Assembly: GCF_028463845.1 (NCBI RefSeq)
Contig: NZ_CP116805.1
Span: 682,001-746,000, forward strand
Direction: 5' to 3'
Source of the DNA: Gimibacter soli
GTDB lineage: Bacteria; Pseudomonadota; Alphaproteobacteria; Sphingomonadales; Kordiimonadaceae
DNA: 64,000 nt
The notes beneath the pieces were generated by a model, which was not told the DNA's origin, made no database searches, and saw nothing but the letters and a program-made list of their open reading frames with translations. This document shows, one piece after another, positions 16,643 through 20,314 of the stretch (position 1 is the first letter of the stretch; each line of letters opens with the position of its first letter). Position numbers and translations under genes: made by a program.

Positions 16643-17086
16643 TCAAGCTTCCTTGTGCCCGGCGGAGCAGCCGCCAGCGGGCGCTGCAAGCGCCGAGAGT
16701 TTCACGTCATCAAGTGCCCCGCGCACGGCGCCATTGATGACCTGCCAGTGCGGACGCACATTGCATGTATGATCGATGCAGCAGTCCGAGGTTTCGGTAT
16801 CTGCGCAGTGGGTGACCGCGATGGGGCCGTCGACGGCCTCGATGATATCGGCGATCGAGATGGCCTCGGCGCCGCGGGCCAGCGTGTAGCCGCCAGCCAC
16901 ACCCCGGTGGGCCACCAGAACGCCCGAGCGCGACAGAAGATGCAGCACTTTCGATACGGTCGGCAGCGGAATGCCGGTCAGAAGCGACAGGTCCTGCGCG
17001 TTCAGCCGGTTGCCGCCGAGAGCCAGACGGCTCATCAGCACAACAGCATAATCGGCAATGTTGGTCAGCTTCAGCACATCATCCAT
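16643..17086 (-). CDS. Rrf2-family regulator of the suf operon
   Basis: A 147-residue Rrf2/IscR-family repressor. The winged helix is at residues 1-80 ([17 protein letters not shown], [19 protein letters not shown], GGYTLAR). Three cysteines lie in [15 protein letters not shown], the place where IscR-type proteins bind a [2Fe-2S] cluster. It is the first gene of the suf operon and most likely senses Fe-S status to regulate its own operon. The C-terminus adds a short AGGCSAGH stretch with one further Cys. SufR or IscR naming cannot be decided from sequence alone. Confidence 0.92.
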
Positions 17087-17127: not shown

Positions 17128-17176
17128 ATGACCAAAATGTTCAGGTTTAATATGGGGTCATGGGGGGCAGAGTCAA
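17128..17176 (-). promoter_or_regulatory. Predicted suf operon promoter with inverted repeat
   Basis: Read on the minus strand, TTGACT (17176-17171) and TATTAA (17152-17147) are 18 bases apart, a good sigma-70 promoter ending about 60 bases before the Rrf2 ATG. ATGACC at 17128-17133 and GGTCAT at 17156-17161 form an inverted repeat that straddles the -10 element, a plausible operator for the Rrf2 regulator. The -35 overlaps a GANTC site (GAGTC at 17170-17174), the CcrM methylation motif read by GcrA, but such sites are frequent by chance. Confidence 0.5.
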
Positions 17177-17308
17177 GCGCCCGACCGCTGTGTGCGCCGC
17201 GCTTATGACGCAAATGTGCGGCAAATGCACGCACAAATGCTGCCTGCGTGACAAAATGCCAACTTCAGGGCTAGGGTGGGTCATCACTTGTTCGACATCA
17301 GGCAGTCC

Positions 17309-18259
17309 ATGACCCCCGACGACCAGCTTGCCCTTTATGCCAGTGCCCGATTCGCCCGCGCCTTCGAAGCGGCGGTTGGCCGCGCCCGTGATGATGGCCT
17401 TGTGCCCGGCGTGGTACATCTGAACGGGGGGCAGGAGCTGGTTGAGCTGGGCGTGTTCCGCCAGCTGGATGGGGCGCGCGACCGGGTGACAGGTTCGCAC
17501 CGCAGCCACGGCCTCGCGCTCGCCGCCGGTGTCTCGCCCGCTATGATCGCAGCCGAAATCATGGGACGCACCGGCAGCCTTTCGGGCGGGCTTGGCGGCA
17601 CCCAGCATCTGGTGCCCGCAGGCGGGCTTTTCATGGGCTCGAACGGCATCGTCGGCGGGCAGGTGCCGCTGGCCGCCGGCGCCGCCTTTGCCGCGAAATC
17701 CAAAGGCAATGGGGGCATTGCGGTCGCTTTCTTCGGGGAAGGCGCAGCCCAGCAGGGCGGGGTGATGGAGACCATGAATCTCGCCGTGGTCCTTGGCCTG
17801 CCGCTCCTTTTCGTCTGCGTCAACAACGGCTGGGCGCAATCTACGGGGGCGGACGCCAGCGCCGGCGCACCGCTCGCCCCCCGCGCCAGGGCCTTCGGGA
17901 TGCAGGCTGAAAGCGTTGATGGCGGTGATCTCGGCGCAGTCGATGCCGCCGCGCGCCATCTGGTTTCGCAGATCCGCACGAACGGCCAGCCAGCCTTTCT
18001 GGAAGCGCATGTCTCCCGCGTTGGCGGGCATTATCACGGCGAAGATCAGGGCTACCGCAAGGACGGCAAGCTCACCGATCCGCTCGACCGTCTGCGCGCC
18101 ACGCTTGTGGAAGCCGGCGTGACGGCTGCGAACCTGCACCGGATCGAGGAAGAGGCCGAAGCCCGCGCCCGCGCAGCGTTCGCTGAAGCAGCGCTTGAGC
18201 CTGCGGATGACCCCTCGACCCTTGTCCTCTGGGCCCGTGATCTCGGGGGCTTCGCATGA
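17309..18259 (+). CDS. 2-oxoacid (pyruvate/acetoin-type) dehydrogenase E1 alpha
   Basis: A 316-residue thiamine-diphosphate subunit of the pyruvate/acetoin dehydrogenase E1 alpha family. The ThDP region reads FFGEGAAQQGG then CVNNGWAQST, so the usual GDG has Glu in place of Asp while the NN pair is kept. GSHRSHGLALAAG and LGGTQHLVP match the family, and the C-terminal GGHYHGEDQGYR corresponds to the activation loop. ATG at 17309 is preferred over a GTG at 17276. It overlaps the E1 beta gene by 4 bases. No E2 or E3 gene follows; instead a cytochrome b561 does. The substrate is unknown. Confidence 0.88.
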   Translation: MTPDDQLALYASARFARAFEAAVGRARDDGLVPGVVHLNGGQELVELGVFRQLDGARDRVTGSHRSHGLALAAGVSPAMIAAEIMGRTGSLSGGLGGTQHLVPAGGLFMGSNGIVGGQVPLAAGAAFAAKSKGNGGIAVAFFGEGAAQQGGVMETMNLAVVLGLPLLFVCVNNGWAQSTGADASAGAPLAPRARAFGMQAESVDGGDLGAVDAAARHLVSQIRTNGQPAFLEAHVSRVGGHYHGEDQGYRKDGKLTDPLDRLRATLVEAGVTAANLHRIEEEAEARARAAFAEAALEPADDPSTLVLWARDLGGFA

Positions 18260-19233
18260 AACAGATGACGATCCCCGCGGCGGCGGCGGAAGCCCTGTAT
18301 CAGGCGATGGCGGCGGACGGCAGCGTCTTCCTGATCGGCGAAGACCTTGCCATGGGCGGCGTGTTTGGCGCTGCCCAAGGGCTGAAGGACCGGTTCGGCC
18401 CATCACGGGTGGTCGATACCCCGATTTCGGAAACATCCTTCCTCGGCCTTGGCATTGGCGCGGCGATGAGCGGCATGAAGCCGGTGGTCGAGATCATGTT
18501 CTGCGATTTTCTGGGTGTCTGCTTTGACCAGCTGATGAACCAGGCGGCGAAAACACGTTTCCTGTCCGGCGGGACGGTCAGCCTGCCGCTGGTGATCCGC
18601 ACCACGATGGGGGCGGGGGACGGATCGGGTGCCATGCACAGCCAGTCGAACTATGGCCTTGTTGCCAGCGTCGCGGGCCTCCGCGTTGCTTGCCCGTCGA
18701 ATGCAGCGGATGCGGCGGGGCTTCTGAAAACAGCCCTTGAAGGCCCGGACCCGGTGGTGATTTTTGAGCATAAAGGCCTGTTCGGGGCAGAAACCCCGGT
18801 CGATCCTGCGTTGCCACCCGTGCCGTTTGGCAAAGCGCGGACCTTGCGCCAAGGCGCGGATGTCACGCTCGTTGCAATCGCTGCAATGGTGCCGGTGGCA
18901 CTCAAAGTTGCCGATAGCCTCGCCAAGCGCGGCATTGGGGTTGAGGTCATCGATCCCGTGACGATCAACCCGCTGGACCGCGCGGCGGTCCTCGCAAGCG
19001 TCCAGAAAACCGGCCGGTTCGTGGTGCTTGATGAAGGCGCTGCCTTCGCGGGTATCGCCGATGCGCTTGTCTCGATGGTTTCGCGGGAAGCATTCAGGTC
19101 GCTGAAGGCCGCACCTGCTGCGATCACCCCGCCGCATACGCCGGTGCCTTATGCCCCGGCGCTTGAGGCCGCATGGCTGCCGGATGCTGCCCGGGTGGAA
19201 GCGGCAATTCTGAACATGATGGAGGATGTATGA
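18256..19233 (+). CDS. 2-oxoacid (pyruvate/acetoin-type) dehydrogenase E1 beta
   Basis: A 325-residue transketolase-like subunit that pairs with the preceding E1 alpha. It shows IGEDLAMGGVFGAAQGL, the ISETSFLGLGIGAAMSG motif with the ThDP-activating Glu, CPSNAADAAGLLKTAL and the C-terminal transketolase domain (VTINPLDRAAVLASVQKTGR). Length and motifs are intact. The start is in an ATGA overlap with E1 alpha, and its stop overlaps the cytochrome b561 start by 4 bases, so all three genes are coupled. Confidence 0.93.
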   Translation: MKQMTIPAAAAEALYQAMAADGSVFLIGEDLAMGGVFGAAQGLKDRFGPSRVVDTPISETSFLGLGIGAAMSGMKPVVEIMFCDFLGVCFDQLMNQAAKTRFLSGGTVSLPLVIRTTMGAGDGSGAMHSQSNYGLVASVAGLRVACPSNAADAAGLLKTALEGPDPVVIFEHKGLFGAETPVDPALPPVPFGKARTLRQGADVTLVAIAAMVPVALKVADSLAKRGIGVEVIDPVTINPLDRAAVLASVQKTGRFVVLDEGAAFAGIADALVSMVSREAFRSLKAAPAAITPPHTPVPYAPALEAAWLPDAARVEAAILNMMEDV

Positions 19234-19877
19234 AGCGCATACAGGTGTGGGACCTGCCGACCCGGCTTTTCCACTGGGCTCTTGTGATTGCCGTTGCCCT
19301 TTCGGCCTATTCGGCGTTTGAGGACAAGTTCGGCGTCTGGGCCAAGGTGCATCTTTATGCGGGGCTCACCATCCTCGGGCTTATTCTGTGGCGCCTCGTC
19401 TGGGGCTTCATCGGCAGCGAGACATCCCGATTCAGCCATTTCCTGAAGGGCCCGAAGGCGGTTGCGGCCTATGCGCGGCAGGCAGATGCCGGGGCGCATG
19501 TCGGCCATAATCCGGTCGGTGGCTGGTCCGTCGTCGCCATGCTTGTGGTGACCTTCGCGCAGGCGGCGCTCGGGCTTTTTGCGACCGATGATATGTTTTT
19601 CTCGGGCCCGCTTGCATCGAAAATCGATGGCGGGATGACGGGCACGATCACCGAAATCCATGAGGTGCTGGGCTTCACGCTGTTCGGCCTGATCGGCCTG
19701 CATGTGGCAGCGGTTCTCTATTACCGGATCGTCAAACGGGTCGATCTGGTGCGCCCGATGGTGACAGGCAGCCGTGACGTGGCGCCGGAAACGAAAGAGC
19801 CCGCGCGGCGGCACGGGCTCTGGGCGATTGTTTCTGCCCTCCTGATCGGAGGCGGGGTCGCTTATTTTTCCTTGTAA
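19230..19877 (+). CDS. Cytochrome b561 family di-heme membrane protein
   Basis: A 215-residue membrane protein with about four to five helices. The family pattern is clear: VWDLPTRLFHWALV with a heme-ligand His, KVHLYAGLTILGLILWRLVWG, and EIHEVLGFTLFGLIGLHVAAVLYY with two more His. These proteins move electrons between quinol or soluble carriers across the inner membrane. The start is an ATGA overlap with the E1 beta gene. Its 3' end overlaps by 16 bases the convergent cytochrome c' gene, a plausible electron partner. Confidence 0.92.
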   Translation: MKRIQVWDLPTRLFHWALVIAVALSAYSAFEDKFGVWAKVHLYAGLTILGLILWRLVWGFIGSETSRFSHFLKGPKAVAAYARQADAGAHVGHNPVGGWSVVAMLVVTFAQAALGLFATDDMFFSGPLASKIDGGMTGTITEIHEVLGFTLFGLIGLHVAAVLYYRIVKRVDLVRPMVTGSRDVAPETKEPARRHGLWAIVSALLIGGGVAYFSL

Positions 19878-20314
19878 ACGTCGTGGCAGGACTTGCAGTT
19901 TTTGAAGGTCTTGCCGAGGGCTGCCATCGAAGCGCTCTTGTCGCCGGTTTTGGCGGCGGCAAGGAAGGCCTCGGTGTCGGCCACAAACCCATCCATGGCG
20001 GCTGAGAATTTATCCCATTCCGCCCAGATCTGGTCTTTCGCTTCACCCTTGCCGTGCACGGTGCGGGTATCGACCTTGAAGGCGGACTGCGAAACCTTGG
20101 CACCCGCCACGAGCGCTTCGGCCAGTGGCACCAGATTCTCGTCCGCGCCTGCCTCGCCTTTCAGCACCGTCATGGCACCCATCGCCGAATTCACGACGAT
20201 CTGCATGCCCTGGTGGCGGAAGGCAACGGGCGGTGCCAGTTCCTCTTCGCCGTGTGCGGCAACCGGGGTCGCGATGATGGCAGCGGCCAGAAGGGCCTTC
20301 GACAGCGATTTCAT
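19862..20314 (-). CDS. Cytochrome c' / c556 family protein
   Basis: A 150-residue periplasmic c-type cytochrome. It has a signal peptide (MKSLSKALLAAAIIATPVAAHG), a four-helix bundle and the class II heme motif CKSCH close to the C-terminus, followed by DVYKEK. RHQGMQ near the N-terminus matches the conserved start of c556 proteins. It faces the cytochrome b561 gene and overlaps it by 16 bases. Class II cytochromes bind NO or transfer electrons; which applies here cannot be told. Confidence 0.93.
   Translation of the reverse strand: MKSLSKALLAAAIIATPVAAHGEEELAPPVAFRHQGMQIVVNSAMGAMTVLKGEAGADENLVPLAEALVAGAKVSQSAFKVDTRTVHGKGEAKDQIWAEWDKFSAAMDGFVADTEAFLAAAKTGDKSASMAALGKTFKNCKSCHDVYKEK

Follow-up and report, generated by a model that had tools for sequence, protein, structure and literature searches.

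E1 enzymes of the 2-oxoacid dehydrogenases are normally tied to a lipoyl-E2. The locus described here raises the question of what an E1 pair does when it shares an operon with a membrane cytochrome b561 and no E2 stands beside it. The locus lies in a stretch of 64,000 nucleotides (the window) from the 3.59 Mb genome of Gimibacter soli (contig NZ_CP116805.1, positions 682,001 to 746,000), and its features are collected in Table 1. A first-pass annotation of the window had proposed that this E1 pair might act without a lipoyl-E2 and pass electrons from a ThDP-bound intermediate into the cytochrome. The layout on which the proposal was built is borne out by the open reading frames and the DNA: the E1 alpha, E1 beta and b561 genes overlap by 4 bases at each junction, the cytochrome c' gene faces b561 with an overlap of 16 bases, and neither E2 nor E3 is found among the neighbouring ORFs (for E2, also by family search). 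The exact overlaps are a genus-level trait; the 16-base one occurs in 2 of the 23 family loci with cytochrome c' at this place (this genome and a congener), and in the other family loci b561 and cytochrome c' are separated by 46-707 bases.

Table 1. Features of the E1-b561 locus, in window coordinates
Feature	Position	Strand	Basis
E1 alpha, ThDP-binding subunit, 316 aa; outer active-site loop shortened; GEG at residues 143-145	17309..18259	+	ORF, DNA, Pfam, alignment
E1 beta, 325 aa; Glu59 and His128 kept	18256..19233	+	ORF, Pfam, alignment
Prokaryotic cytochrome b561, 215 aa; four conserved His (15, 41, 144, 158)	19230..19877	+	Pfam, alignment
Cytochrome c', 150 aa; C-terminal CxxCH; old partner of b561	19862..20314	-	ORF, Pfam
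E1 alpha outer-loop segment, residues 235-258 (approximate codons); shortened in Kordiimonadaceae	18011..18082	+	
Rrf2-type regulator, first gene of the suf operon, divergent from E1; neighbour outside the E1 unit	16643..17086	-	

The E1 alpha product matches the Pfam model E1_dh with 174 bits, and E1 beta carries Transket_pyr and Transketolase_C. The third gene product matches Ni_hydr_CYTB, that is, prokaryotic b561 (PF01292), with 81 bits and has its four conserved histidines; the fourth matches Cytochrom_C_2 (PF01322) with 75 bits and has the expected C-terminal CxxCH. The first two proteins are an E1 by both fold and family: the AlphaFold model of E1 alpha, which served for the fold only (mean pLDDT 71, loop below 50), aligns with solved 2-oxoacid dehydrogenase E1 alphas at a VIA-align Z of about 33. 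Against the PDH E1 alpha equivalog model the protein scores 229 bits, under the cut-off of 394, and we thus regard it as a relative and not a standard PDH E1. It has in common with PDH E1 the fold, ThDP motif and catalytic residues; the b561-linked E1 alpha differs in being only 37% identical to the PDH E1 alpha of its own genome, in its shortened loop and in having no E2. Its counterpart in Pseudokordiimonas caeni LB-31 is 94% identical to it.

An E2 might be encoded elsewhere in the genome. A whole-genome search with PF00198 gave two matches, one adjoining the OGDH E1 and one adjoining the PDH E1, these PDH and OGDH assignments of the E1 and E2 genes being made from length and place. The genome has three clear E1 alpha-type genes (PDH, OGDH and the b561-linked one), a fourth match being weak. 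For the b561-linked E1 the PF00198 search left no cognate E2, neither in the operon nor unassigned in the genome, so that none is spare. In the family, an E2-like match near E1 is absent in 25 of 26 loci; the exception (L061) was found by one of five E2 queries only, at 26% identity, and perhaps concerns the hydrolase part of the query.

The gene order holds well beyond the species. Among 29 Kordiimonadaceae genomes, E1 alpha has orthologs in 27 and b561 in 28, and the order E1 alpha, E1 beta, b561 is found on a single strand in every one of the 27 E1-bearing genomes; E1 never occurs without b561 within the family. The b561 start lies between -14 and +29 bases from the end of E1 beta in 27/27 loci, the gaps being approximate since start codons at the family loci were assigned by alignment. 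Upstream of E1, rrf2 and suf are present in 25/27 loci, and cytochrome c' follows b561 in 23 of the 25 with sequence that far. However, the unrelated neighbours gcrA, abc, argD, argF and hsp33 keep their order nearly as well as E1 and b561 do, and therefore gene order says little by itself about a tie between E1 and b561, and its value as a proof of coupling is lessened. On the other hand, the trio stays intact at loci broken on the suf side (L056, L057) or on the cytochrome c' side (L051, L074), which, as there are few synteny breakpoints, is modest evidence. At the break in L051 (L051:10605-12146), E1-b561 adjoins an ABC1-kinase-type gene; in L056 (L056:7130-7966) it stands directly behind a formamidopyrimidine-DNA glycosylase gene, and in L057, judging by length, at the same place.

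We also considered shared control by the Rrf2 regulator. Positions 17128-17181 hold a conserved promoter/operator before rrf2-suf, with a TGAC..AGTCA-like inverted repeat and the elements CATATGGG and GAGTCAA, the latter in 22 of 25 family intergenic regions. This motif reads as the rrf2-suf promoter and is thus uninformative on E1; Rrf2 control of E1 was rejected.

In a sample of 398 genomes of the phylum, three of which are family members, the family proteins scored 437-457 bits and the next best 288, and the E1 variant appears to be confined to Kordiimonadaceae within this sample. In the class (385 genomes sampled), E1 and b561 lie within 3 kb of each other, among the matches listed, in this genome only. 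In four genomes of another family, f46, the E1 pair lies 8-23 kb from a b561-cytochrome c' pair, its loop is full-length, no E2 is seen nearby, and next to the E1 pair comes, downstream, a protein that combines PQQ-type propeller repeats with a cytochrome c motif (L137:13295-17198; also L138, L139 and L141).

The b561 and cytochrome c' genes are a separate pair, older than the link to E1. Taking the best 29 b561 matches outside this genome in the 385 class genomes, we found cytochrome c' within 1.5 kb in 24 (19 on opposite strands and 5 on the same strand; loci among L078-L106) and E1 beta near none of the 29. The pairing of prokaryotic b561 with cytochrome c' is widespread across Alphaproteobacteria, and the two genes lie for the most part on opposite strands. 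The titles and abstract openings that we surveyed, mostly outside subscription journals, describe neither an E1-b561 operon nor a b561-cytochrome c' pair. The block around our locus also exists free of E1. In one genome of family f6 (L246) the whole block of hsp33, argF, argD, abc, gcrA, cytochrome c', b561, rrf2 and suf is present and E1 is absent; in family f7 (L247) the same block lacks argF and argD as well as E1; another f6 genome (L248) has the block without E1, b561 or cytochrome c'. Around sufB in 14 outgroup genomes, E1 was found in 0/14 and b561 in 2/14. Within Kordiimonadaceae, one member (G090) carries b561 and cytochrome c' in the block but no E1, and in another (G096, 83% complete) neither E1 nor b561 was seen. 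G090 falls inside the family in the tree, where inner support is weak. Because E1-free blocks occur in two other families of the order and in G090, E1 looks as if it had been inserted between rrf2-suf and b561. On parsimony, the simplest history would have the E1 pair enter once between rrf2 and b561, in the family ancestor, and be lost later in G090. A conserved order can thus suggest a coupling against which the older, E1-free form of the locus argues.

The outer active-site loop of E1 alpha was compared across the family. From the loop His to the next conserved Asp there are 11-19 residues in 27/27 family proteins, against 20-24 in 53/53 E2-linked rows and 20-33 in 21/21 rows without an E2 seen, so that the family lengths overlap with neither set. 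'E2-linked' here means any E2 or lipoyl-domain match with E under 1e-8 on the same strand within the locus, and in PDH-type rows the E1 beta lipoyl domain may account for this match; L151.1, omitted from the E1 tree, is included in the loop and residue counts. A phmmer comparison with human PDH independently gave a six-residue deletion at the same loop site. The R of the YR motif after the loop is kept in 9/27 family members, this protein among them, against 48/53 E2-linked rows, and a DVY-type C-terminal tail, recognized by eye in most E2-linked E1 alphas, is missing from the family. The catalytic residues are kept in 27/27: Glu59 and His128 of beta, and Arg237, His241, Asn172 and Asn173 of alpha. 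E1 beta also retains most residues that E2-linked E1 betas retain, with Met for Gln beside His128 in 25/27, and 25/27 family E1 alphas have Gln at the place equivalent to Ile206, counted as four on from the second Asn of NN and not by structure alignment. In the Geobacillus stearothermophilus E1, the outer loop (275-293 alpha) becomes ordered above the ThDP intermediate and interacts with the lipoyl domain; I206A, a change in a residue setting the loop conformation, gave 1331% of the DCPIP activity and 35% of the complex activity (PMC2663715). As the catalytic residues are kept and the loop is trimmed, the family E1 should remain ThDP-dependent, its pocket changed and the way into it more open. 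Action without lipoyl-E2, as in this part of the earlier proposal, seems likely from the sequences, with the order kept in 27/27, no spare E2 and the loop shortened in 27/27. The annotation had also singled out the GEG of E1 alpha in place of GDG. It is indeed present, yet it carries no signal: 23/27 family members have GDG, and GEG also occurs in 5/53 E2-linked E1 alphas, so we rejected it as a special motif.

The relatives of this E1 give some idea of what it might do. All 27 family rows group in a single clade (support 100/98), whose nearest row is a fused E1 alpha-beta (L070) from another family of the order; the next clade consists of acetoin-type E1s, including E2-linked rows from aco-like operons. 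The family is thus a clade of its own, which together with the fused E1 is sister to the acetoin-type clade. Fused E1 alpha and E1 beta in one frame of ~660-680 aa were seen in family f6 (L198:7988-9976, L070), with no E2 or b561 beside them. A Thermus plasmid (L157:5998-8185) carries E1 alpha, E1 beta, a small free-standing biotin/lipoyl carrier and then TRAP transporter genes, with no full E2 annotated. Acetoin dehydrogenase AcoA/AcoB, the nearest large clade, is of the same two-subunit length class and has a similar loop context, but AcoAB-type pairs adjoin an E2 (L152, L153, L155), whereas this E1 has none, has a shortened loop and falls, with its family, outside their clade. The AcoAB E1 (acetoin:DCPIP oxidoreductase) is assayed with an artificial acceptor and able to carboligate, and an alphaKADH2 group (KbDH-alpha/beta) is described as E1 alpha/beta pairs for C-C bond formation (PMC12247030). 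On that description, this E1 resembles the alphaKADH2 carboligases in being a pair with no E2 beside it or unassigned in the genome; those pairs, however, sit in natural-product clusters, and this one in a housekeeping block (suf, gcrA, arg, hsp33).

Does the E1 pair feed electrons into b561? E1-linked and E1-free b561 do not differ in length range or in their His residues. We looked for an E1 docking site on b561 by comparing 26 E1-linked with 30 E1-free sequences (L062, cut by a contig end, was excluded; one E1-free row of 521 aa is maybe a fusion or misread), and rejected it: by length there is no extension, and most family-specific columns, placed on a deduced topology, are shared with the E1-free G090 copy. 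ThDP oxidoreductases of the PoxB and PFOR type, which use membrane or ferredoxin acceptors, carry electrons from ThDP through a FAD or Fe-S domain. A domain search of the E1 pair found E1_dh and transketolase-type domains only, and none of the FAD or Fe-S kind. Superoxide oxidase CybB and LcoA are, like the family b561, two-heme proteins of this general type. Electrons come into the b561 of superoxide oxidase at the periplasmic face and are delivered to quinone on the cytoplasmic one (PMC11869295). LcoA is a prokaryotic b561 tied to a periplasmic partner, a lipocalin (PMC9113575), while the partner of the family b561 is cytochrome c'.

With these data, the several readings of the locus can be weighed together. 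The original one has a 2-oxoacid oxidised by the E1 pair, with electrons passing from the ThDP intermediate to b561, directly or via quinone, and on to cytochrome c'. It draws on the tight spacing of b561 to E1 beta in 27/27 loci, on E1 never occurring without b561 in the family, on the lack of an E2 to spare, and on the shortened loop, together with the faster reduction of a small acceptor by an E1 mutant whose loop is disturbed (PMC2663715). We nevertheless consider it rather improbable. The b561-cytochrome c' pair is older and stands without E1 in 24/29 class loci, in the blocks of two other families and in G090; the family residues of b561 are mostly common to the G090 copy and its length is unchanged; E1 has no FAD or Fe-S to step electrons down; flanks unrelated to E1 are almost as conserved in order; and the direction of flow in superoxide oxidase, from periplasm to cytoplasmic-side quinone (PMC11869295), speaks against it. 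A link between E1 and b561 through the quinone pool is possible. In its boldest form, the idea would make the pair a flavin-free, Fe-S-free 2-oxoacid (or acyloin):quinone oxidoreductase, in which quinone, or the edge of the b561 heme, would gain access to the ThDP site through the shortening of the loop, E1 would feed the membrane directly and b561 would pass electrons to cytochrome c'; this we regard as a long shot. One may also ask whether the pair is an alternative E1 using the PDH or OGDH E2 core in trans. The genome does have two E2 genes, the catalytic residues including His128 of beta and the loop His are kept, and the YR motif persists in 9/27; but the outer loop is shortened in 27/27, the DVY-type tail is missing, and only the weak match in L061 (1/26) places anything E2-like near E1, which makes this unlikely.

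The remaining alternative is that E1 and b561 came into one operon by accident of insertion and are kept there by general synteny, with no functional tie. The conservation of the hsp33-argF-argD-abc-gcrA-cytochrome c'-b561-rrf2-suf block as a whole, including genes unrelated to E1, and the presence of rrf2 upstream (25/27) and cytochrome c' downstream (23/25) agree well with it, while the trio's persistence at loci that lost one flank does not. We take this as a serious possibility, if somewhat short of an even chance, and it is compatible with the explanation towards which, with modest confidence, we lean: the pair would be a family-specific derivative of an acetoin-type two-subunit E1, uncoupled from lipoyl-E2 and free-standing, that shares an operon with an older b561. 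On this explanation, the E1 pair would have been inserted ahead of the older b561-cytochrome c' pair in the Kordiimonadaceae ancestor, whereby b561 became the last gene of the operon. The enzyme may cleave or decarboxylate a 2-oxo compound or an acyloin, and its active site, being more open, might then pass the carbanion bound to ThDP to a small acceptor instead of the lipoyl arm, most likely a carbonyl compound (carboligation) and less likely a small oxidant. The uncoupling from E2 is itself what the comparison of sequences suggests. Most likely b561 keeps its own role, moving electrons between quinone and periplasmic cytochrome c'.

A whole family in which the catalytic core of E1 is kept but the loop that meets the lipoyl domain is trimmed amounts to a natural experiment on the role of this loop, and the Kordiimonadaceae E1 is a candidate new carboligase or oxidase.
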